This document shows positions 43,658 to 56,485 of a stretch of 64,000 nt of DNA, in pieces. Source of the stretch: Hyphomonadaceae bacterium (GTDB lineage Bacteria > Pseudomonadota > Alphaproteobacteria > Caulobacterales > Aquidulcibacteraceae); assembly GCA_022841905.1 (NCBI GenBank), contig JALHQO010000004.1:62001-126000 (forward strand), given 5' to 3'. Position 1 is the stretch's first letter. Each line of letters starts with the position of its first letter. A program made the translations under genes and the position numbers. The notes beneath the pieces are model-generated. The model made no database searches. It had not been told where the DNA came from and saw only the letters and a list, made by a program, of their open reading frames with translations.

Positions 43658-44746
43658 TCAGCCCCAGTGCATCTGGACATGGTGCGAGAACGAGACCGAG
43701 CGGAGCACATCGTCGGCGATCAGTTCTGCCATGGCTTGGCAGCCGATGTCGCCGCCAAGGTCGGCGGTGCGCGCGCCGCGATCCAGCACGTGTTCGACAG
43801 CCGCCTCAACCGCGCTCGCTTCGTCGAGCAACTTCAGTCCATAGCGCAGCAGCAGCGCGGCCGAGAGGATGGCGCCGATCGGGTTGCAGAGATCGCGCCC
43901 GGCAATGTCCGGGGCCGAACCGTGCACGGGCTCGAACAGGCCGGGGCCCTCGGCGCCGAGCGAGGCGGATGGCGCCAGCCCAATCGAGCCGCCGAGCACG
44001 GACGCTTCGTCGGAGAGGATGTCGCCAAACATGTTCTCGGTCAGGATGACGTCATAGTGGCGCGGCTTGCGGATGAGTTGCATGGCGGTGGAATCGATCA
44101 GCGCGTGTTCGAGGCGCACGTCGGGATACTCCTCCGCGTGCACGCGCGTGACCACTTCGCGCCAAAGCCGGCTCGTCTCCAGCACGTTGGCCTTGTCGAC
44201 GGAGGTCACCTTGCCTTCGCGCGCGCGCGCGGCTTGGAACGCGGCGCGGGCGATGCGCTCGATTTCGATGACGGTGTAGATGCACTGGTCGCTGGCGAAG
44301 TCTTCGCCGCGGCGCTTTTCGCCGAAATAGGCGCCGCCGGTCAGTTCGCGGAACACTACGAGATCGACGCCGGCCACGATGTCGGCGTGCAGCGGCGAGG
44401 CCGGGATCAGCGCGTCATAGATGCGCACTGGGCGGATGTTGGCGAAGAGGCCGAAGGCTTTGCGCAGTTCGAGCAAGCCTTGCTCCGGCCGGCGCGGGCT
44501 TTTGTCCCAGCGCGGGCCGCCGACGGCGCCCAGAAAGATCGCCTGCGCTTCACGACACGCGACCAGCGTCTCCTGCGTCAGCGGCTCGCCGGTGGCGTCG
44601 ATCGATGCGCCGCCGATCAGGTGTTCGTCGAACACGAAGCGATGCTGGAAACGATCGGCGACGGCATGAAGCACCTCAACCGCCGCGCGGGTGACCTCGG
44701 GCCCCACGCCGTCGCCGGGCAGGAGGGCAATTTTATACGTCTTCAT
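43658..44746 (-). CDS. leuB: 3-isopropylmalate dehydrogenase
   Basis: This 362-residue NAD-dependent enzyme oxidises and decarboxylates 3-isopropylmalate to 2-ketoisocaproate, the third step of leucine synthesis. Visible motifs: YKIALLPGDGVGPEV, LGAVGGPRWD, LRKAFGLFANIRPVR, FRELTGGAYFGEKR, VDKANVLETSRLWR and EPVHGSAPDIAGRDLCNPIG. Length is typical. It is the last gene of the ilvDCBN-leuACDB block and overlaps leuD by four bases. Confidence 0.96.
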   Translation of the reverse strand: MKTYKIALLPGDGVGPEVTRAAVEVLHAVADRFQHRFVFDEHLIGGASIDATGEPLTQETLVACREAQAIFLGAVGGPRWDKSPRRPEQGLLELRKAFGLFANIRPVRIYDALIPASPLHADIVAGVDLVVFRELTGGAYFGEKRRGEDFASDQCIYTVIEIERIARAAFQAARAREGKVTSVDKANVLETSRLWREVVTRVHAEEYPDVRLEHALIDSTAMQLIRKPRHYDVILTENMFGDILSDEASVLGGSIGLAPSASLGAEGPGLFEPVHGSAPDIAGRDLCNPIGAILSAALLLRYGLKLLDEASAVEAAVEHVLDRGARTADLGGDIGCQAMAELIADDVLRSVSFSHHVQMHWG

Positions 44747-45321
44747 GCTGTTCTCGCTTCAAAGGAGTCGATGGCGGGCAGGCGATCCACGAGCCAGCCC
44801 AAGGTGTCGACGCCGTCCAACAGGCAGCGCCGGGCAAAAGGATCGATGACAAACTTCACTGGCGGTTCGTTGCCGGCGATGAGTTCGCAGCATTCGACAT
44901 CGACCGTCACGCGCCCGCCGGGATCGGCCAGCAGGCGTGCATGCGTGTCGGCGTCAACGATGACCGGCACCAAGCCGTTCTTCAGCGCATTAGAGGCGAA
45001 GATGTCGGCGATGCCGGTGGAGACGATAACGCGGAAGCCATAATCGAGCAGCGCCCACGGCGCGTGCTCGCGCGAAGAGCCGCACGCGAAATTGTCGCCC
45101 GCGACAAGGATGCGGTGCTCGGCTGGATCGATCGTGTTCAGTTGCGCGTCCGGCACTAGCGCGCCATCGGGGCCGTAACGCCAATCGTAGAAAGCGGCCG
45201 AGCCGAGACCATCGCGCGTCGTCGTGGTGAGAAAGCGTGCCGGGATGATCTGATCGGTGTCGATGTTCGCCTGCGGCAGCACCAGTGTCCGCGAGGTGAG
45301 GCGCGTGAATTGCTCAGGCAT
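44743..45321 (-). CDS. leuD: 3-isopropylmalate dehydratase small subunit
   Basis: This 192-residue subunit forms the isomerase with LeuC that turns 2- into 3-isopropylmalate. It starts at the ATG at 45321 ([20 protein letters not shown]) behind GGAGG. The swivel-domain substrate loop is [11 protein letters not shown] and the active-site region [15 protein letters not shown]. It overlaps leuC by eight bases and leuB by four. Confidence 0.95.
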
Positions 45322-46729
45322 GGGCCGCCTCCAGAAACGCGCGCGGATCGGTGAGCTTGCCGGTGACGGCGCTCGCGGCGGCGGTGGCGGGGCTGGCGAG
45401 AATGGTGCGCGCGCCTTTGCCTTGCCGGCCTTCGAAATTGCGGTTCGACGTCGAGACCGCGAGTTGCCCGGCGCCGACGAAATCACCGTTCATGGCGATG
45501 CACATGGAGCAACCCGGCAGCCGCCACTCGGCCCCGGCATCGATGAACACACGGTCCAGGCCTTCCGCTTCGGCTTGCTGCTTCACCGACTCGGAGCCGG
45601 GCACGACCAGCATGCGCACGCCTTCTTTCACGCGCCGTCCGCGCAGGACGGCAGCGGCATCGCGCAAATCCGTAAGGCGGCCATTGGTGCACGAGCCTAC
45701 GAAGACGACGTCGATCGCATGATCCGTCGTCGGCGCGCCAGCGGCGAAGCCCATGTAGTGGAGCGCTTGGCGTTCGCTGTCGTCGCGCGCGGACGGGGTC
45801 GGTGCGCCGATAGCGATGGAGGCGTCGGGCGTGGTGCCGAAGGTGGCCATTGGCGAGATAGTGGCAGCGTCAATCTGGATTTCGCTGTCGAAGCGCGCGC
45901 CATCGTCTGTCACGAACGCACGCCATTTCGCGACGGCGGCTTCGAAGTCTTCCGGCGCGTGGCGGCGGCCGCGCAGATAGGCGAAGGTCGTCTCGTCCGG
46001 GGCGATCATGCCGGCGCGGGCGCCGGCTTCGATCGACATGTTGCAGAGCGTCATCCGCCCTTCCATGCCGAGCACGCGGATGGCGTCGCCGGCGTACTCG
46101 ATGACGTGGCCCGAGCCGCCGCCGAAGCCGATGCGATTGACGACCGCAAGCGTTAGATCCTTCGCCGAAACGCCCGGCCCCAAGCGGCCATCGACGGTGA
46201 CGCGCATCTGCTTCGGCTTGCGTTGCAACAAACACTGTGTCGCCAGCACGTGTGCGACTTCTGAAGTGCCGATGCCAAACGCCAGCGCGCCGAACGCGCC
46301 ATGCGTGGCGGTATGACTGTCGCCGCAAACCACGACCATGCCCGGCTGCGTGAGCCCCAACTCCGGCGCCATCACATGCACCACGCCGCGATCATGGCTG
46401 TCCCAATCCGCCAAGCGCACGCCGTGGCGCTCGCAATTGGCGCGCAGCTGATCCACCTGAGCTGCCGCGGCGGCGGTTACGTAAGTGCGCGCTCCGCTCG
46501 CCGCTGGCGGCAACGTTGGCGTCGAGTGATCGAGCGTGGCATAGGTGCGGTCGGGGCGGCGCACGCGGAGGTCGCGCTGATTGAGTTCGGCGAATGCCTG
46601 CGGGCTGGTGACCTCGTGCACGAGGTGTAGCCCGACATAAAGAATAGCCGGCGCATCCGCCCTCTCCGGCTCCACCAGATTGGCGTCCCACAATTTGTCG
46701 AACAGCGTGCGCGGCTCAGGCGGCGGCAT
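45314..46729 (-). CDS. leuC: 3-isopropylmalate dehydratase large subunit
   Basis: This 471-residue aconitase-family subunit binds the [4Fe-4S] cluster: Cys in [14 protein letters not shown] and the pair in [12 protein letters not shown]. Other motifs are [20 protein letters not shown] and [10 protein letters not shown]. The ATG at 46729 has GGAGACGCCA before it; an earlier in-frame ATG would only add ten residues inside leuA. It overlaps leuA by 14 bases, so translation is coupled. Confidence 0.96.
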
Positions 46730-48269
46730 TGGCGTCTCCGCTTCGCCCTTGCAGCGCAACTAGCCGGTTGAGCGCGGCCACATAAGCGCGCGCGCTGGCG
46801 ACCAGCGTATCGGCGTCCGATGCGCGGCCGGATACGGAGCGGCCGTTGGCCGAGAGACGCACACTCACCGTGGCTTGCGCGTCCGTGCCCTCGGTGACGG
46901 CCTGTACCTGGTAGAGCTCAAGCGTCGCTTCATGCGGCGCGGCAGCCTTGATGGCGTTAAAGATCGCATCAACCGGGCCTGCGCCACGCGCGGTTTTCCA
47001 AACCTGCTCGTCATTGACGAGCAAATCGATCTCGGCGGTTTGCGGGCCGTCTGTGCCGGCCACAACGCGCAGGCGGGTGACCTGGATCGCTGCGTCCGCA
47101 TGGGCGATCTGATCGTCGACCAGCGCAATGATGTCTTCGTCGAAGACATGGCGCTTGCGGTCACAGAGTTCCTTGAAGCGATGGAAGGCGTCGGCGAGCG
47201 CATTGTCGCTCAAGGCGTAGCCGAGCTCTTCCAGTTTGTTTTTGAACGCATGACGGCCGGAGAGCTTTCCCATCACCAGGCTGGTCGCGCCCTGGCCGAC
47301 ATCTTCGGGCCGCATGATCTCGTAGGTCTGCGTGTTCTTCAGCATGCCATCCTGATGGATGCCGCTTTCGTGGCTGAAGGCGTTTTTGCCGACGATCGCC
47401 TTGTTGTATTGAACCGGAAAGCCAGTGATGCGCGAGACGGTTTGGCTCGCGCGCATGAGGTGCGCCGGATCAACCGCGGTCTGGAACGGCAAGTCTTCGC
47501 CGCGCACGCGCAGCGCCATCACGATCTCTTCGAGCGCTGCATTGCCGGCGCGTTCGCCCAAGCCGTTGACGGCGCACTCGATCTGGCGTGCGCCGCCTTG
47601 CACCGCGGCTAGCGAATTGGCGACGGCGAGGCCCAGATCGTTATGGCAGTGCGAAGAGAACACGACGCTGTCAGCGCCGGGAACATTGGCGATCAGATCT
47701 TCGAAGATGGCGCGGTATTCGTCCGGAAACGAATAGCCGACGGTGTCGGGGATGTTGATCGTGCCGGCGCCGGCCTTGATGGCGGCTTCGACGCAGCGGC
47801 GCAGGAAGTCGCGTTCCGTGCGCGTCGCGTCCTCGGCGCTCCATTCGACGTCGTCGGTGAAATTGCGCGCCAGCGTCACACTTGCCGTCACCGCGTCGAG
47901 CACTTGCTCTTGCGACATGTTGAGCTTGTGTTTGCGATGGATTGGCGAGGTCGAGATGAAGGTGTGAATGCGACCGCGCGGGGCTGAGCGAATGACTTCG
48001 GCGCAGCGTTCGATGTCTTTCGGGCTCGCACGCGACAGGCCGCACAGAATTGAGTTCTGGAGCACGCCACCGACGGCGCGGACAGCTTCGAAATCGCCAT
48101 TGGAGGCGGCCGGAAACCCGGCCTCAATGATATCGACGCCCATCTGTTCGAGGATGCGGCCGAGTTCGACTTTGTCTTCGAGCGTCATGGCGGCGCCCGG
48201 CGATTGCTCGCCGTCGCGCATCGTGGTGTCGAAGATCTTGACCGTGGCGGCGTTGGACTGGGCGGTCAT
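46716..48269 (-). CDS. leuA: 2-isopropylmalate synthase
   Basis: This 517-residue enzyme joins acetyl-CoA to 2-ketoisovalerate, the committed leucine step. The catalytic barrel starts [20 protein letters not shown] and includes [20 protein letters not shown] with metal-binding His residues, and [15 protein letters not shown]. The C-terminal LeuA dimer domain (about 390-510), where leucine feedback binds, is present. It follows ilvN after an 84-base gap that holds a 21-codon ORF whose stop overlaps this ATG. Confidence 0.96.
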
Positions 48270-48331
48270 ACACTAATCCCCGTCTGCACGACTTTGAACG
48301 AGCGGGCGGCGGAGAGAGAAAACTGCGTCAT
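48266..48331 (-). CDS. Candidate 21-aa ORF translationally coupled to leuA
   Basis: An ATG at 48331 opens MTQFSLSAARSFKVVQTGIS followed by Val and a TGA that overlaps the leuA ATG as ATGA. GGAG lies ten bases upstream. It fills the only sizeable gap in the ilv-leu block. It could be a leader or coupling peptide for leuA; branched-chain residues are not unusually dense, and no hairpin with a T-run was seen. Too short for coding statistics. Confidence 0.35.
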   Translation of the reverse strand: MTQFSLSAARSFKVVQTGISV

Positions 48332-48353
48332 GGGGCGGGAGCTCCGAGAATTG

Positions 48354-48914
48354 TTAAGAAGCAAGGGGTTCGGGCGAGCGCTCGGCGTCGCCCCCCATAA
48401 GTCGATCCGCATGCGGGCCGCGATGGATCGACAGAACGCCGGTGCGCGAAATCTCGGTCAGGCCGATGGGGCGCATCAGATCGATGAAGGCGTCGACCTT
48501 CTCGCTCGCGCCGGTGACCTCAAAAATGAAGCTCTCCAGCGTCGTGTCGATCACCTTGGCGCGGAAAATATCGGCCACGCGCAGCGCTTCGATGCGGTCC
48601 TGTCCGCTGGAGCGCACCTTCACCAGAGCCAGTTCGCGCAGCACGCCAGCGGCGTCATCGGTGACATCGATGACTTGCCGCACCGAGACGATGCGGTCGA
48701 GCTGTGATTTGATCTGATCGATGGTGGCGGGCTCGCCGCGCGTCACGACCGTGATGCGCGAGGTGTGCGCCGCGGTGTCGGTCTCGGCGACTGTGAGGCT
48801 TTCGATATTGTAGCCGCGCGCCGAGAACAGACCGACGACGCGCGCCAGCACGCCTGGTTCGTTGTCCACCAAGATGGCCAGCGTGCGTGCTTCGGAGCGG
48901 GCGGAATGCGTCAT
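48354..48914 (-). CDS. ilvN: Acetolactate synthase small (regulatory) subunit
   Basis: This 186-residue subunit carries an N-terminal ACT domain (RTLAILVDNEPGVLARVVGL, FSARGYNIESLTVAETDT) that binds valine and sets feedback, and a C-terminal ALS_ss_C domain with DRIEALRVADIFRAKVIDTT. It shares one base with the ilvB stop, so the two subunits are made in step. The last residues are family-typical for the IlvH/IlvN type. Confidence 0.95.
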   Translation of the reverse strand: MTHSARSEARTLAILVDNEPGVLARVVGLFSARGYNIESLTVAETDTAAHTSRITVVTRGEPATIDQIKSQLDRIVSVRQVIDVTDDAAGVLRELALVKVRSSGQDRIEALRVADIFRAKVIDTTLESFIFEVTGASEKVDAFIDLMRPIGLTEISRTGVLSIHRGPHADRLMGGDAERSPEPLAS

Positions 48915-50716
48915 CAGACCAGCTTCTTTCCGGCGTCGTCGATGCGGGTCGCGGCGAGGTCGTCGGCCAAGATCATCTCGTTGTGCGCCTTGCCGGACGG
49001 GATCATGGGAAAGCAGTTTTCCTCACGCGCCACGCGGCAATCGAACAGAACGGGGCCGGGCGCCGCGATCATTTCCGCGATTTTGGTATCGAGTTCTTCG
49101 GGCCGGTTGGCGCGGATGCCGGTGCAGTCGAAAGCCTCCGCCATCTTCACGAAGTCCGGCAGCGCTTCCGAATAGGAGTGCGAATAGCGTTCGCCGTGCA
49201 GCAATTGCTGCCACTGGCGGACCATGCCCATCCATTCGTTGTTGAGGATGAACACCTTGATCGGCAGGCGATGCTGCACGGCTGTGCTCATCTCCTGCAT
49301 CGTCATCTGAACACTGGCTTCGCCGGCAATGTCGATGACTAGGGCGTCCGGGTGCGCGGCTTGGACGCCGAGCGCGGCGGGCAGGCCGTAGCCCATGGTG
49401 CCGAGCCCGCCGGACGTCATCCAACGGTTCGGCTCGTCGAAGTGAAAGTACTGCGCCGCCCACATCTGATGCTGGCCGACTTCGGTGGTGATGTAGACGT
49501 CCTTTCCGCGCGTTGCGGCGAACAGGCGTTCGATCGCGTACTGCGGCTTAATCACGTCGGTGTCGTGCGCGTATGAAAAGCACTTGCGCGCCCGCCATTG
49601 ATCGATGCGCTGCCACCAGGCGTCGATGGACGGCGCAGGCGCCCGCCGCGTACGCCAAGCGCTGAGGATCGCACGCAAAGCTTCGCCAGCGTCGCTGATG
49701 ATGGCGACATCGACGCGGACGTTCTTGTTGATCGATGATGGATCGATATCGATGTGGATCTTGATGGAGTTCGGACTGAACTTGTCGAGGCGGCCGGTGA
49801 CGCGGTCGTCGAACCGAGCGCCGATGCAGATCATCACGTCGCAATCGTGCATGGCGTGATTGGCTTCCCACGAGCCGTGCATGCCGAGCATGCCCAGCCA
49901 TTGCGGATCGGAGGCGGGAAAGGCGCCGAGGCCCATTAAGGTGGAGGTGACCGGAAAGCCGGTTTCCCGCGCCAGTTCGCGCAACGCCGCGCTCGCGGAA
50001 GGCCCGGCATTGATGACGCCGCCGCCCGTATAGAGGATTGGCCGCTTGGCGCGGGCCATGATCTCCACGGCTTGTGCGATTTTCGTCTGATCGACCTGAC
50101 GCGTGGTGCGTTTGGAGCGACGCGGTGACTGCCCCGGGGGCAGATACGTGCCTTGCGCGAACTGAATGTCCTTCGGAATATCGACCACGACAGGCCCAGG
50201 CCGGCCGCTACGCGCGACGTAAAACGCCCCGTGCAGAATGGCCGCCAGATCATCGATGTCGCTGACCAACCAATTGTGTTTCGTGCACGAGCGCGTGATG
50301 CCGACCGTGTCGCACTCTTGGAACGCGTCAGTGCCGATCAGATGCGTGGGCACCTGACCGGTGATGACGACGAGCGGAATGGAATCCAATAGTGCGTCCG
50401 CCAACGGCGTCACCATATTGGTGGCGCCGGGGCCGGAGGTGACCAACGCCACGCCGACCTTGCCGGTCGACCGCGCATAGCCTTCCGCCGCGTGACCGGC
50501 GCCTTGTTCGTGACGCACCAGAATGTGGCGCATGTCATCATTGGCGAAGAGCGCGTCATAGATCGGCAGCACAGCGCCGCCCGGATAGCCGAACAACGTG
50601 TCGACGCCATTATCGCGCAGCGCCTGGATCACCATCTCGGCGCCCGTCATCTCGACCCCAGCCTGCGGGGCAGGCGTGGGTGGATGAATTTGCGCTATGT
50701 TGCTGGTCGCGGTCAT
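48914..50716 (-). CDS. ilvB: Acetolactate synthase large (catalytic) subunit
   Basis: This 600-residue ThDP enzyme makes acetolactate or acetohydroxybutyrate from pyruvate. Motifs: LFGYPGGAVLPIYDAL, VRHEQGAGHAAEGYARSTGK with the ThDP-activating Glu, VTSGPGATNMVTPLADAL and the C-terminal NNEWMGMVRQWQQLLH. In the metal-binding GDG position it reads DIAGEASVQM (Glu466); I believe related alphaproteobacterial enzymes can show this too. It lies eight bases after ilvC and shares a base with ilvN. Confidence 0.96.
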   Translation of the reverse strand: MTATSNIAQIHPPTPAPQAGVEMTGAEMVIQALRDNGVDTLFGYPGGAVLPIYDALFANDDMRHILVRHEQGAGHAAEGYARSTGKVGVALVTSGPGATNMVTPLADALLDSIPLVVITGQVPTHLIGTDAFQECDTVGITRSCTKHNWLVSDIDDLAAILHGAFYVARSGRPGPVVVDIPKDIQFAQGTYLPPGQSPRRSKRTTRQVDQTKIAQAVEIMARAKRPILYTGGGVINAGPSASAALRELARETGFPVTSTLMGLGAFPASDPQWLGMLGMHGSWEANHAMHDCDVMICIGARFDDRVTGRLDKFSPNSIKIHIDIDPSSINKNVRVDVAIISDAGEALRAILSAWRTRRAPAPSIDAWWQRIDQWRARKCFSYAHDTDVIKPQYAIERLFAATRGKDVYITTEVGQHQMWAAQYFHFDEPNRWMTSGGLGTMGYGLPAALGVQAAHPDALVIDIAGEASVQMTMQEMSTAVQHRLPIKVFILNNEWMGMVRQWQQLLHGERYSHSYSEALPDFVKMAEAFDCTGIRANRPEELDTKIAEMIAAPGPVLFDCRVAREENCFPMIPSGKAHNEMILADDLAATRIDDAGKKLV

Positions 50717-50724
50717 CAGATCGC

Positions 50725-51726
<1,002 letters not shown>

Positions 51727-51735
51727 CGTCAGGCC

Positions 51736-53448
51736 TCACGTTGCGCCGGCGCGCGGGTTTGCGCCGGGGGGGGGGGTGGGAATGGTGACCGCACCCTGCG
51801 ACGCTGACGCGACAAGGACGGCGTATTTGGCGAAAGCGCCGACGGGCGCTTCTCGTGTCGGCGGCTGTGCAGTGCGTGCGCTCAGATCGGCGCTTGTATT
51901 GATGCTGCGCGCGGCGACATCGATGCGGATGATGTCGCCATCGCGCAGCAAGGCGATCGGACCGCCCGTCGCCGCCTCGGGGGAAACGTGCCCGGCGACG
52001 AAGCCATACGATGCGCCTGAGAAGCGCCCATCGGTGATGAGCGCGACGTTTTGCATGCCGCGCCCTTTGAGCGCGGCGGTGACTTGCAGCATTTCGCGCA
52101 TGCCGGGGCCGCCCTTGGGGCCCTCGTAGCGAATGACGATCACATCGCCTTCGGCGATGGCGCCCGCTTGCACCGCGTCGAACGCCGCGTCCTCGCTGTC
52201 GAACACGCGGGCTGGACCTTCGAAGTGCGCGGTGTCATGGCCGACCAGTTTGATTACCGCGCCATCGGGGGCGACGTTGCCGTAGATCACCGCGTAGGAG
52301 CCGCGCGGCATGACCGGCTTGGCGAAGGTGCGGACCACGGTTTGGCCGCCGGTTTCAACCGCCTCGCGCGCTTCCTCGAACATGGTGCGGCCGGAGACGG
52401 TCGGCGCATCGGTGATTTTGCCGGCTTGCATCAGGCGATGCATGACGAGCCGGGTGCCGCCAGCCTCGAACAAATGGTGCGCCAAGAACTGGCCGCCCGG
52501 CTTCAGATCGCAGATCACGGGTGCGGTCTCGCAAGCCTCGTTGCAATCCTCGACGCCGAACGCGATGCCCGCTTCGGCGGCGATTGCGGTTAGGTGCAGC
52601 ACGGCGTTGGTTGAGCCGCCGCTGGCGGAAACGGCTATGGCGGCGTTGCGCAATGAAGCGGCGGTGATGAAGCGGCGGGCGTTCAATCCGCGTTGTGTCA
52701 GCTCTACGGCGACGCGCCCGCAACGTTCGGCTTCGGCTGGTTTGTTTTTGTGAACCGCAGGCACGTCATTGGCGCCCATAGGCGACAGGCCCATCGCCGA
52801 GAGCGCCATCGCCATGGTGTTGGCGGTGAATTGGCCGCCGCACGCACCGGCGCCGGGGCAAGCTGCCTTTTCGACGTCGCGCAGGCCTTCATCATCCAGT
52901 GAGCCTGCGCCATGCGCGCCGATTGCCTCAAACACGTCCTGGATCGAAATTTCTTTGCCGGCGTGGCGACCCGGCATGATGGTGCCGCCATAGAGCACGC
53001 ATCCCGGCAGATCCATGCGCGCCAGCGCCATGGCGGCGGCAGGAATGGTCTTGTCGCAACCGACAATGCAAACCACGCCGTCCAGCTGATGGCCTTGCAC
53101 GGCCAGCTCGATGGAATCGGCAATGATCTCGCGCGAAATCAGCGACGCCTTCATACCGGGCGTGCCCATCGAGATGCCGTCAGTGACGACGATAGTGTTG
53201 AAATCGATCGGCACGCCGCCGGCCTCGCGCACGCCGCGGCGCACGTATTCGGCCAGATCGCCCAGATGCATGTTGCACGGCGTGACTGACGACCAGGTGT
53301 TCACCACCGCGATCAGAGGCCGCGCGAAATCCTCATCGCCGAGGCCAGCCGCCCGCAAATAGGAGCGTGCAGCCGCGCGCGATGGGCCGCGCGTGACGAC
53401 TTCGCTGCGATGTGCTTTTCGCGTGTTTGGCGGCTCTTCGTGCGACAT
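51736..53448 (-). CDS. ilvD: Dihydroxy-acid dehydratase
   Basis: This 570-residue iron-sulfur enzyme makes 2-ketoisovalerate and 2-keto-3-methylvalerate. Cluster cysteines are visible in VTPCNMHLGD, VGCDKTIPAA and CPGAGACGGQFTANTM. The ATG at 53448 gives MSHEEPPNTRKAHRSEVVTR; upstream in-frame codons fall in the terminator region. It is the first structural gene of the block, 32 bases after the attenuator T-run. Near its end an 11-base homopolymer encodes IPTPPPGANP, where a slip would alter only the tail. Confidence 0.95.
   Translation of the reverse strand: MSHEEPPNTRKAHRSEVVTRGPSRAAARSYLRAAGLGDEDFARPLIAVVNTWSSVTPCNMHLGDLAEYVRRGVREAGGVPIDFNTIVVTDGISMGTPGMKASLISREIIADSIELAVQGHQLDGVVCIVGCDKTIPAAAMALARMDLPGCVLYGGTIMPGRHAGKEISIQDVFEAIGAHGAGSLDDEGLRDVEKAACPGAGACGGQFTANTMAMALSAMGLSPMGANDVPAVHKNKPAEAERCGRVAVELTQRGLNARRFITAASLRNAAIAVSASGGSTNAVLHLTAIAAEAGIAFGVEDCNEACETAPVICDLKPGGQFLAHHLFEAGGTRLVMHRLMQAGKITDAPTVSGRTMFEEAREAVETGGQTVVRTFAKPVMPRGSYAVIYGNVAPDGAVIKLVGHDTAHFEGPARVFDSEDAAFDAVQAGAIAEGDVIVIRYEGPKGGPGMREMLQVTAALKGRGMQNVALITDGRFSGASYGFVAGHVSPEAATGGPIALLRDGDIIRIDVAARSINTSADLSARTAQPPTREAPVGAFAKYAVLVASASQGAVTIPTPPPGANPRAGAT
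51766..51776. repeat. Eleven-base G homopolymer in the ilvD 3' end
   Basis: Eleven G on the plus strand (C on the coding strand) lie about ten codons before the ilvD stop, far longer than any other single-base run noticed in the window. A change of one base would alter the last ten or so residues and perhaps run into ilvC. It may be an assembly weak point or a slippage site. Confidence 0.9.
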
Positions 53449-53479
53449 TCGGGTCCGTTCGAGGCCGACCGCGCGCAAC

Positions 53480-53506
53480 AAAAAACCCGCTTCCGGAGGG
53501 AGCGGG
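53480..53506 (-). terminator. Attenuator terminator before ilvD
   Basis: On the minus strand CCCGCT...AGCGGG forms a stem (with further CC/GG pairs inside) followed by six T, 27 bases after the leader-peptide stop and 32 bases before the ilvD ATG. A competing pairing is visible: GGAGCGG in the leader (53554-53560) with CCGCTCC inside the terminator (53499-53505). This is the classical attenuator layout. Confidence 0.85.
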
Positions 53507-53533
53507 GTGTTGCGGGCGATCCTGTTGGTTGGG

Positions 53534-53683
53534 TCAGGGTACGCTCAGCCACTCCGCTCCGGCGGTAAGAATGACCGCGAGGCTAAGAAGGACTACGTTG
53601 AGTACGACGACGCCAAGCGCGCGCACGTCCACCGCGACAGCAGTCGCGGTCTTGCGGGCGGCGAGAGGACGGGTCGACGTCAC
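53534..53683 (-). CDS. Candidate branched-chain leader peptide (ilv attenuator), 49 aa
   Basis: A GTG at 53683 opens a 49-codon frame ending TGA at 53534, just before the terminator. Residues 23-39 read LGVVVLNVVLLSLAVIL, 13 of 17 being Leu, Val or Ile, so ribosome speed here would report charged Leu, Val and Ile tRNA. GGAG lies 12 bases before the GTG, a little far. The dense hydrophobic run could also be a membrane helix, but place and downstream terminator favour a leader peptide. Confidence 0.7.
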   Translation of the reverse strand: MTSTRPLAARKTATAVAVDVRALGVVVLNVVLLSLAVILTAGAEWLSVP

Positions 53684-53706
53684 GATGTGTATGTGCTCCG
53701 TCGAAA

Positions 53707-53735
53707 ACTAGAACGGACTTTTGTGCGGTGCGCAA
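53707..53735 (-). promoter_or_regulatory. Candidate promoter of the ilv-leu block
   Basis: On the minus strand TTGCGC (53730-53735) and TCTAGT (53707-53712) are spaced 17 bases apart, a fair sigma-70 match. Transcription would start near 53700, giving about 220 bases of leader up to the attenuator. By eye only. Confidence 0.4.
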
Positions 53736-53910
53736 TAAGAAAATGCTCTGAGGTGCTGAACGAAGCGTTGATGTCGTCTGAAGAGTCAGCGGCGCCCGCT
53801 AAAGCGGCGCCGTAAGTTCAGGCAGTTCGCGGCCTTCCGCGTACACGCGCGTGTGAAGCGATTGTCGCGTTTTGGGGAGGTGACAGACGCGCTGCGCTGC
53901 ACTATGAACG

Positions 53911-53965
53911 TCGTTGCGCCGATTTGATCTCAGCTTGCGGGCGCGTTAAAAATACAGCTAAAGCG
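53911..53965 (+). ncRNA. SAM-II riboswitch
   Basis: The stretch reads GCGCC-GATTTGA, then CTTGCGGGCGCGTTAAAAAT and AGCTAAAG. These are the conserved blocks of the SAM-II (metA motif) riboswitch in order. GCGCC (53916-53920) pairs with GGCGC (53940-53944) as P1, and the GCTAAAG tail forms the pseudoknot. SAM-II is known mainly in alphaproteobacteria upstream of metA, metX and metZ. It stands before the ACT-like ORF and metX-metB here. A hairpin (TTGCGGG/CCCGCAA) follows at 53972-54004 as a possible expression platform. Confidence 0.87.
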
Positions 53966-54048
53966 AAGATGATTGCGGGTTTCCGCATCGTCCTCAGCCC
54001 GCAAGCAATCCTCAAAAACGCGCACCGTTTGAACGCTGGAGCGCGGCT

Positions 54049-54372
54049 ATGCGAGCTTGTCAGGACGCCTATGAAGCGAGTGCGGAGTACGCGCTCGACG
54101 ATCTTCCGGGCGTCGAGATTCAACACGATCTGTTTTTGGCGCTCCCAGACCTGACCGCATGGTCAGCGATTGCGGAGCGTTTGTCGGCGGCGCGCGCCGA
54201 GGTGCGCGCACTTCAAATCGCGCCCGATGGCGATGGCTTGGGCCTCAGATGTCGGCTGACGCGGATTGCATCTGGTGAGGCGCGAGCGTTGGTCTCGGAC
54301 CTGCTTGAGGCGGGCGTCGCGCGGCGCGGGCAGGTCGAGCACTTACTCTTGGCGGCGGGGGCGGCGCGATGA
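54049..54372 (+). CDS. Small ACT-like protein upstream of metX
   Basis: This 107-residue protein starts at an ATG with GGAG eight bases upstream. The central part, GVEIQHDLFLALPDLTAWSA then IAERLSAARAEVRALQIAPD and GLRCRLTRIASGEARALVSD, has the beta-alpha-beta rhythm of ACT domains, with the LLEAGVARRGQVEHLLLAAG end. It overlaps metX by four bases (ATGA), so it is coupled. ACT domains bind amino acids; a regulatory role in methionine synthesis is possible but unproven. The ACT match is by pattern only. Confidence 0.6.
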   Translation: MRACQDAYEASAEYALDDLPGVEIQHDLFLALPDLTAWSAIAERLSAARAEVRALQIAPDGDGLGLRCRLTRIASGEARALVSDLLEAGVARRGQVEHLLLAAGAAR

Positions 54373-55328
54373 CTGCGTTAGCGCGCCAGCGCGCCGATCC
54401 GCTTGCGATCGAGGATTTGGACGTCTCGATCCCCGCCGGGTTCCAACTCGAAAGCGGTGATTCATTGCCGGATACGCACACCCGTCTGCGCTTCTTCGGC
54501 GCGCGCGGCGCGCCTTTGGTTCTGGCGCTCGGCGGCATTTCTGCCGGCCGCGACGTGTGCGGCCCGAACGGCTGGTGGAGCGACACCATTGTTGGGCGGG
54601 GCGCGGTTGATTTTCAGCGCTTCACGCTCGTCGGCCTCGATTTTGCGCCCACGGCGGATGCAAAACTCCGCATCTGCCCGCGCGATCAGGCGCGTCTCAT
54701 TCTAAGTGCGCTCGATGCTCTGGACGTTCGCGCGCTGCACGCCTTTATCGGCGCGTCTTATGGCGGCTTGGTTGGGCTCGCTTTAGCGGCGCTGGCGCCT
54801 GAACGTGTCGAGCGGCTTTGCGTTATCTCCGCCGCGCACCGGCAATCGGCGCAAGCCTTGGCTTGGCGCGGCGTGCAGCGGCGCGTGTTCGCTTACGCCG
54901 CGGAGAAAGGCGAGCCCGAGGCGGGCCTCGCCCTCGCTCGGCAGCTCGCCATGATCACCTATCGCACCGGCGATGAATTCGACGCCCGCTTCGGCGCTGG
55001 CATCGACGGTGAAGGCCACGGCGAGATCGATCGCTACCTCGAAGCGCGCGGCCGGGCTTATGCCGCAGCGCCGCGCCGTTGGTTTTCGCTGAGCGAATCC
55101 ATCGATCGCGCCAGCGTTGGTCCCAACACCGTGCGCGTGCCCACAACCCTCATCGCATGCGCCGAGGATCAACTCGTGCCGCTGCCGCTGATCCGAGAAC
55201 TCAGCGCCGCGCTGCCGATTTCGAGCGGTTTGCACATCATCAACTCGATCTACGGCCACGACGCCTTCCTCAAGGCGCCGGCCGACATCGCCCCGATTAT
55301 CGCTCAATGCCTGGAGAACGCACCGTGA
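54369..55328 (+). CDS. metX: Homoserine O-acyltransferase (MetX, short xanthomonad-like type)
   Basis: This 319-residue alpha/beta-hydrolase activates homoserine for methionine synthesis by acetylation or succinylation. The nucleophile elbow is GASYGGLVGLALA, the catalytic Asp lies in CAEDQLVP and the His in IYGHDAFLK. PLVLALGGISAGRDV and RFTLVGLDF are typical of a shorter MetX form that I recall beside metB in Xanthomonas relatives. It overlaps the ACT-like ORF by four bases and metB by four (GTGA). The acyl donor cannot be read from sequence here. Confidence 0.88.
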   Translation: MTALARQRADPLAIEDLDVSIPAGFQLESGDSLPDTHTRLRFFGARGAPLVLALGGISAGRDVCGPNGWWSDTIVGRGAVDFQRFTLVGLDFAPTADAKLRICPRDQARLILSALDALDVRALHAFIGASYGGLVGLALAALAPERVERLCVISAAHRQSAQALAWRGVQRRVFAYAAEKGEPEAGLALARQLAMITYRTGDEFDARFGAGIDGEGHGEIDRYLEARGRAYAAAPRRWFSLSESIDRASVGPNTVRVPTTLIACAEDQLVPLPLIRELSAALPISSGLHIINSIYGHDAFLKAPADIAPIIAQCLENAP

Positions 55329-56485
55329 CCGACCGCGACGAAACCATCGCCAGCCGCACTGGCGTCGATACGGATGCCGCGTACGGCGCGGTGATGCCGC
55401 CGATTTTTCTCTCGGCCAATTACAGCTTCGCCGACTTCAACGAGAAGCGCGCCTATGGCTATTCGCGCTCGGCCAACCCGACGCGCTCGCTACTGGCCGA
55501 GGCCATCGCCAAGCTCGAGCAAGGCGCGGGCGCCGTGATCACCAGTTCCGGCATGTCGGCCGTCGATCTGGTGTTGAACCAAATCCCGGCTGGCGGCCTC
55601 GTCCTCGCGACGCACGATTGCTACGGTGGCTCATGGCGCCTGTTCGAAGCGCGCGCGCGCAAAAAGCAAATCCGCGTTCGCTACGCCGATCTGCGCGATA
55701 GCGATGCGGTGGGCGCCGCCCTCAAAGAAGAACCGGCGCTGCTCTGGATCGAAACGCCCAGCAATCCGTTGATGCGCGTCAGCGATATCGCAGCACTCGC
55801 TAAGCGGGCAAAAGCGGTTGGCGCGCGGGTGGCGGTCGATAACACGTTCTTGTCGCCGGCTCTGCAAAAGCCGATTCCGCTGGGCGCCGACTATGTCGTC
55901 CACTCCACGACCAAATATCTCAATGGCCATTCCGACGTCGTCGGCGGCGCCGTGGTGGCGGCGCGGAAGGAGGATTTGGACGAGCTTATTTGGTGGGCCA
56001 ATTGCACCGGCGTCACCGGCGCGCCGTTCGATGCCTGGCTGGCGCTTCGCGGCCTGCGCACGCTGCATGTTCGCCTCGAACGCCAGCAAGCGACGGCGGG
56101 GCGCATTGCCAAGCGCTTGGCCGAGTCGTCGGCGGTCGCCGCGGTTCACTATCCGGGGCTCGAAGGCCATCCCGACTATGCCTTAGCGCAGCGCCAGCAA
56201 AAGGGCGCAGGCGCAATGCTGAGCTTCGAACTGGCCGCTGGCGCGGACGTTCGCGAGTTCACGCGCGCGGTGCGCCTCTTCGCCTTGGCGGAGTCGCTCG
56301 GCGGTGTCGAAAGCCTGGTCGCGCATCCGGCGACCATGACGCACGCCTCCATGAGCCCCGAAGCACGCCGCGCCGCCGGTATTGGCGATAATCTCATCCG
56401 CGTCTCCGTCGGCCTCGAACATGAGGACGATCTGACCGCGGACCTGGATCGCGCGCTCACGCAGGCAGCGGCGCGGGCGAGGTGA
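55325..56485 (+). CDS. metB: Cystathionine gamma-synthase-type PLP enzyme
   Basis: This 386-residue Cys/Met-metabolism PLP enzyme starts at a GTG overlapping the metX stop. Motifs: YGYSRSANPTRSLLAEAIAK, TSSGMSAVDLVL, THDCYGGSWRLF, WIETPSNPLMRVSDI, VAVDNTFLSPALQKP and the PLP lysine in VVHSTTKYLNGHSDVVGG. It joins activated homoserine with cysteine, or with sulfide if it is a MetZ/MetY-like form; the two cannot be separated safely by eye. It shares the SAM-II-controlled transcript. Confidence 0.88.
   Translation: MTDRDETIASRTGVDTDAAYGAVMPPIFLSANYSFADFNEKRAYGYSRSANPTRSLLAEAIAKLEQGAGAVITSSGMSAVDLVLNQIPAGGLVLATHDCYGGSWRLFEARARKKQIRVRYADLRDSDAVGAALKEEPALLWIETPSNPLMRVSDIAALAKRAKAVGARVAVDNTFLSPALQKPIPLGADYVVHSTTKYLNGHSDVVGGAVVAARKEDLDELIWWANCTGVTGAPFDAWLALRGLRTLHVRLERQQATAGRIAKRLAESSAVAAVHYPGLEGHPDYALAQRQQKGAGAMLSFELAAGADVREFTRAVRLFALAESLGGVESLVAHPATMTHASMSPEARRAAGIGDNLIRVSVGLEHEDDLTADLDRALTQAAARAR

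Follow-up and report, generated by a model that had tools for sequence, protein, structure and literature searches.

A conserved leader ahead of an ilvD-first ilv-leu block in a Hyphomonadaceae bacterium is very probably a branched-chain amino acid attenuator with an additional helix around its terminator

The region upstream of ilvD was analyzed in a window of 64,000 nucleotides, the whole stretch of DNA under study. Judged by its sequence, conservation, codon choice and mutually exclusive folds, this region is very probably a ribosome-mediated transcription attenuator for branched-chain amino acid synthesis. The features of the attenuator class found here are a run of codons for the end products, a terminator, an antiterminator that depends on ribosome position (40/69 leaders) and genes of the same pathway downstream. 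We infer a promoter and start, translation of the leader, a response to amino acids and a single eight-gene transcript. In the proposed mechanism, the transcript would begin near 53701 and the leader frame would be translated immediately. When charged Leu, Val or Ile tRNA is scarce, the ribosome would slow on codons 23-37, the RNA ahead of it would form a long antiterminator hairpin, and polymerase would continue into ilvDCBN-leuACDB. When charged tRNAs are plentiful, the ribosome would reach the stop codon and open the 5′ arm of the antiterminator, the terminator would form, and transcription would end after six U. A branched-chain attenuator ahead of an eight-gene block had been proposed in an initial annotation of the DNA; the proposal is borne out by a leader that relatives conserve, and codon choice and folding with a ribosome footprint fit it. 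The elements were located as follows, with the basis of each in brackets.

53708..53735, minus strand: promoter-like TTGCGC-16-TTCTAG, candidate -35 and -10 (sequence and TTGC spacing in relatives)
53696..53699, minus strand: GGAG, 12 bases upstream of the GTG; candidate ribosome-binding site for the leader frame (20/21 genus leaders)
53534..53683, minus strand: leader frame of 49 codons plus TGA, GTG start (sequence; frame with the Leu/Val/Ile run in relatives)
53567..53617, minus strand: regulatory codons 23-39, 13/17 Leu/Val/Ile (codon counts)
53562..53578, minus strand: small hairpin GCGGT (53578-53574) / ACCGC (53566-53562) (present; proposed in the initial annotation)
53499..53560, minus strand: antiterminator, a single long hairpin with GGAGCGG (53560-53554) and CCGCTCC (53505-53499) at its base (folding and strand-pairing tests)
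53509..53521, minus strand: GATCGC-C-CGCAAC, 5′ side of the outer helix, shared with the 3′ arm of the antiterminator (pairing tests)
53480..53506, minus strand: intrinsic terminator CCCGCTCCC-TCC-GGAAGCGGG plus six T, with the stem at 53506-53486 and T6 at 53485-53480 (sequence; relatives)
53467..53479, minus strand: GTTGCG-C-GCGGTC, 3′ side of the outer helix, downstream of the U-run (pairing tests)
51736..53448, minus strand: ilvD, first gene of the block, ATG at 53448 (NCBIfam)
43658..51726, minus strand: ilvC, ilvB, ilvN, leuA, leuC, leuD and leuB (NCBIfam)

On direct reading of the minus strand, the leader frame runs from GTG at 53683 to a TGA stop at 53536-53534 and holds 49 sense codons; the annotated counts and coordinates (13 of 17 residues Leu, Val or Ile at positions 23-39) are correct. 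Within this run, CTT encodes four of six Leu, GTA two of six Val and ATT the only Ile. Following a scan of the open frames in all six frames of the whole 64 kb, at least 13 Leu, Val or Ile residues were found in 5 of 90,158 overlapping 17-residue windows, the leader itself counted. A GGAG with a start codon behind it was present in 20/21 genus leaders and absent from one (L038). Among the 21 genus leaders examined, window included, TTGC lies 36-38 bases upstream of GGAG in 18 of the 20 having that GGAG; five control distances gave 0, 0, 1, 4 and 5 of 20. This spacing makes a promoter at 53735-53708 likely, with transcription presumably starting near 53701. The sequence TTGCGC-16-TTCTAG is a weak consensus match. 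Neither a promoter nor a terminator was found by a generic scan of 53300-54100, probably because its rules accept only promoters nearer to the sigma-70 consensus, and only unbroken stems whose loop measures 3-8.

The terminator sits between the leader frame and ilvD. GGAGCGG, CCGCTCC and the terminator with T6 were found at the annotated positions. The 5′ arm of the antiterminator consists of the last eight codons of the leader frame and its stop, GGAGCGG lying inside the reading frame; a ribosome completing the frame must therefore open the antiterminator. The structures were compared in 69 leaders (21 from the genus, 23 from the Brevundimonas group and 25 from a distant set; L031, near-identical to the window, was excluded) and in alignment A2, comprising 28 chosen leaders of the 45 available for Caulobacterales. 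The segment from GGAGCGG to CCGCTCC folds as a single unbranched long hairpin in 28/28 A2 sequences, as judged by eye. Relative to dinucleotide shuffles, its z-score is -5.43 in the window and below -2 in 21/21 genus, 23/23 Brevundimonas group and 20/25 distant leaders.

Pairing partners were further assessed by comparing cognate with swapped strands; the resulting permutation counts are not independent probabilities, because close relatives remain among the 69 leaders. For the strands at the base of the antiterminator the count was 0/2000 across the 69 leaders and 47/2000, 243/2000 and 42/2000 within the genus, the Brevundimonas group and the distant set, respectively. The middle arms prefer their own partner overall (7/2000) and in the distant set (0/2000); no cognate preference was seen in the genus (1533/2000) or the Brevundimonas group (1925/2000), where their sequence is nearly invariant. 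Partners taken from different clades do not match: Caulobacterales arms reach -13.8 kcal/mol among themselves and -8.2 when combined with Parvularculaceae-type arms. On A2, the antiterminator covariation count was barely above its shuffles, and covariation support for the antiterminator is mixed. The structure that RNAalifold returned for alignment A1 was weak and mixed, at -8.3 kcal/mol with a covariation term of 0, and was set aside; a single alignment cannot display mutually exclusive folds.

For folding with a ribosome footprint, the RNA was left free beginning 14 bases beyond the start of the A-site codon. In the window, a ribosome stalled 31 to 13 codons ahead of the stop gives a predicted antiterminator probability of 0.51-0.86. 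That of the terminator is 0.82 at 12 codons before the stop and at least 0.95 from 11 on; at the most distant stall tested (32 codons) the terminator returns (0.80). The Leu/Val/Ile run spans 27 to 11 codons before the stop. In footprint folding, which the initial annotation had suggested, the antiterminator of the window leader thus gives way to the terminator where the ribosome exits this run. By a fixed rule applied to equilibrium folds, a switch was obtained in 10/21 genus, 19/23 Brevundimonas group and 11/25 distant leaders, 40/69 in total, versus 0, 0 and 2 (2/69) when the antiterminator strand was shuffled. The remaining 29/69 gave no switch in this equilibrium test, and in L035 and L073 the terminator was favored at all stall positions tested. 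Ribosome-free, the window favors the antiterminator (0.71), and L035, L064 and L073 favor the terminator; a general default state cannot be deduced from these folds.

Attenuators of the enteric and trp type have, in the textbook layout, a 1:2 pause or protector hairpin. A full 1-2-3-4 arrangement had likewise been annotated here, with GCGGT/ACCGC as the small hairpin. Its sequence is present at that position; conservation as a pairing within clades was not found. Cognate versus swapped strands 1 and 2 gave 126/2000 in the genus, 1670/2000 in the Brevundimonas group, 270/2000 in the distant set and 6/2000 over all clades, and the hairpin is not supported as a conserved 1:2 element, having no clear within-clade pairing signal. 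The full layout is not borne out, given this result and a ribosome-free window leader that still favors the antiterminator. What emerges is a simpler layout than that annotated, in which the end of the leader frame would decide between antiterminator and terminator.

Codon usage was counted in the densest 20-codon stretch of each leader. The 21 genus leaders use CTT for 61/134 Leu, GTA for 39/81 Val and ATT for 23/36 Ile, and in the eight operon genes of the window these codons are rare, at 13/245, 7/259 and 32/183, respectively. In Brevundimonas, CTT is used for 0/305 Leu codons in eleven ilvD genes versus 51/156 in the 23 leaders of the group. Codons ending in A or T make up 56% of Leu/Val/Ile codons in genus leaders, compared with 11% of the other codons in the same stretch and 12.5% of the Leu/Val/Ile codons in the operon's own genes. 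The corresponding values for Leu/Val/Ile and the rest of the stretch are 48% and 9% in the Brevundimonas group and, with weaker contrast, 48% and 30% in the distant set. Selective charging theory, in the available text of PMC1183508, accounts for codon bias of this kind; in GC-rich genomes, a preference for CTT, GTA and ATT that is confined to Leu, Val and Ile offers a direct test case for it.

The closest named IlvD relatives, among the best 80 loci of a larger set, come from Hyphomonadaceae metagenome bins, followed by Brevundimonas. From these 80, 58 alphaproteobacterial-type ilvD loci with upstream DNA were kept, including two metagenome bins labeled otherwise (L049, Bordetella; L074, Gammaproteobacteria); L039, without upstream DNA, was left out, and 21 Xanthomonadales-type loci were tallied separately. 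A Leu/Val/Ile-rich frame and a terminator-like stem precede ilvD in 58/58 loci by a permissive pattern, so that the comparison with relatives called for in the initial annotation found the leader frame conserved. At least eight Leu, Val or Ile in 15 residues occur in 57/58 (L097 has seven), and a stricter search recovered the terminator in 54/58, missing it in L040, L048, L051 and L071.

RNA model R1 matched 44/150 genomes of the order at E 0.01, 11 of them from the genus of the window; its training set came largely from this genus, and many genus matches are the training sequences themselves. At order level 30 loci were fetched, own locus included and weaker matches left out; behind the element in the other 29 lies ilvD in 26, ilvC in one (L173) and neither in two (L165 and L168). 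In the class, R1 matched 8/289 genomes, the window's own included. A spread of R1 across the class was discarded: at the eight loci from the other seven genomes (E 2.5e-4 to 0.0087), which are probably chance matches, not one of the eight ilv/leu proteins is encoded. A second model (R2), whose training leaders were those of R1, matched before ilvD in five Lysobacter-type loci (L106, L096, L110, L100 and L092; E 8e-5 to 1.3e-3 in 1.18 Mb). Among the Xanthomonadales-type loci, 11/21 have at least nine Leu, Val or Ile per 15 residues before ilvD, eight of these with a terminator as well. In Lysobacter- and Arenimonas-type loci ilvD comes first and the leader is present. In nine Dyella, Rhodanobacter and Tahibacter loci (L086, L088, L095, L098, L099, L101, L103, L108 and L109) ilvD follows leuB, and a Leu/Val/Ile-rich leader directly before it is absent.

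The eight proteins of the block were named IlvD, IlvC, IlvB, IlvN, LeuA, LeuC, LeuD and LeuB by NCBIfam; for IlvD, the best model scored above its cut-off and TIGR00110 just below its own. A single leader setting all eight genes is plausible because the gaps are short (9, 8 and 84 bases after ilvD, ilvC and ilvN). Terminator-like sites inside the block, on both strands, numbered 8 versus a shuffle mean of 7.8, no excess. In the own genome, one match each was obtained for ilvD (E to 1e-100), the AHAS large subunit (1e-20) and leuA (1e-10). One leader would then set the sole copies found of these three genes, placing three amino acids under one switch.

The middle of the operon occurs in two forms within the genus, both between the same ilvDC and leuCDB and with the same leader in front. 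The window form (46716-50716) reads ilvB-ilvN-leuA and is also found in L031, L036 and L039. The other form (e.g. L032-L035; L032:12720-15895) has an AHAS that is 42-45% identical, of AHAS II type by NCBIfam in L032, and a shorter LeuA, about 50-55% identical. Upstream, a SAM_alpha riboswitch (RF00521) was matched at 53906-53982 on the plus strand, ahead of a metX-like gene (54369-55328, just below the cut-off of its model) and a metB-like gene (55079-56485). It lies on the opposite strand, so that a single divergent intergenic region holds two RNA switches. The riboswitch is present in L032 and L033 among six relatives scanned, and metX stands divergently beside ilvD in L031-L034 and L037 among the best 80 loci.

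The outer helix (53521-53509 / 53479-53467) comprises 12 pairs with one mismatch and brackets the terminator; its 3′ strand lies downstream of the U-run, and the helix is therefore possible only in read-through RNA. Cognate versus swapped strands gave 0/2000 in the genus, 0/2000 in the Brevundimonas group and 11/2000 in the distant set; a control segment pair gave 1470, 603 and 1918, respectively. On A2, 85.5% of cells pair; shifting the strands by one to three columns lowers this to 28.6-44.9%. Changes on both sides were seen in 13 cells, versus 5.3 in shuffles. With the terminator forced, the outer helix dominates in only part of the relatives. We tentatively consider, at odds that remain rather low, a two-layer switch in which, after read-through, the helix rearranges the folding at the 5′ end of the operon's mRNA and adds a second control through processing, stability or ilvD translation; its 3′ strand (GCGGUC) and the arm at the leader stop would then compete for one partner. 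If true, Caulobacterales attenuators would have a conserved part that the searchable literature does not describe. The conserved outer helix appears to be the new element here, and its role is a proposal.

A related reading, which we hold to be improbable, adds to attenuation an inverted repeat that masks the translation start of ilvD and is released by the outer helix. Directly before the ATG, many relatives carry a repeat like GGTCCG...CGGACC, for whose 5′ arm the outer helix is a competitor; cognate repeat arms, however, scarcely beat swapped ones (63, 194 and 208 of 2000), and the predicted openness of the ilvD start shows no consistent difference between folds, being alike in both (0.61 and 0.51 in the window). 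As arm swaps and start openness lend it little, masking of the ilvD start was not adopted.

The reading as a ribosome-mediated attenuator was also weighed against two explanations that dispense with it. Hydrophobic short frames are sometimes genuine proteins, and a Leu/Val/Ile run that resembles a transmembrane helix, conserved together with its frame, would suit a small membrane protein that has a function and a terminator of its own, with ilvD controlled only incidentally. This is very unlikely, as Leu, Val and Ile interchange freely within the run, the shift to A- or T-ending codons is confined to these residues, the codons of the C-terminus also serve as an arm of RNA structure with complementarity to the terminator, the frame keeps its position before ilvD, and it has no Pfam match. 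Least probable of all is a ligand-binding riboswitch or protein-binding leader that governs the terminator with the frame as a by-product: a conserved frame with codon-specific bias requires translation, and an Rfam search of the leader strand with E up to 5 returned only a sub-threshold sRNA match further upstream, even though the RNA structure is strong and conserved, as such a leader would have it.

Attenuation of Caulobacter ilvBN, mentioned in the initial annotation, is described for C. crescentus in the available text of PMC4117421, citing Tarleton, Malakooti and Ely 1994. As given there, that leader is alike in its tandem Ile and Val codons, rho-independent terminator and downstream branched-chain genes, and occurs in related bacteria; it lies ahead of ilvBN, whereas the present one precedes ilvD and a block with leuACDB, as far as codons, terminator and genes were compared. 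The accessible part of PMC1273637 refers to a leader peptide of an alphaproteobacterial ilvB, citing Vitreschak et al. 2004, and the terms 'ilv' and 'Caulobacter' are absent from the main text of Naville and Gautheret 2010 (PMC2965389). No attenuator ahead of ilvD in Caulobacterales was found in a literature search that covered few subscription papers, and the leader has no gathering-score match in Rfam release 15. The ilvD (WRC-18-2) motif, according to the available text of PMC8632094, was named for its position ahead of ilvD, sometimes with a terminator, and is a weak riboswitch candidate from Veillonella only; it is a different element from another phylum.

The ilvBNC leader of Corynebacterium glutamicum, from an unrelated phylum, likewise has an overlapping antiterminator and terminator, and its control codons CUU (Leu) and GUA (Val) are those favored here (accessible text of PMC11857589). 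As portrayed in that source, it forms three hairpins including an anti-antiterminator, whereas no such hairpin is supported here, and it differs from the present leader in the helix that follows the U-run here. The enteric ilv, leu and trp attenuators share the same logic and biased regulatory codons, as set out in the available part of PMC1183508. Compared with these, the textbook 1:2 hairpin is unsupported here, the 5′ arm of the antiterminator is the end of the leader frame itself, and an outer helix follows the terminator. The mechanism is already known; among gene switches the leader very probably belongs to an established class, of which it is a well-conserved case carrying one extra helix.
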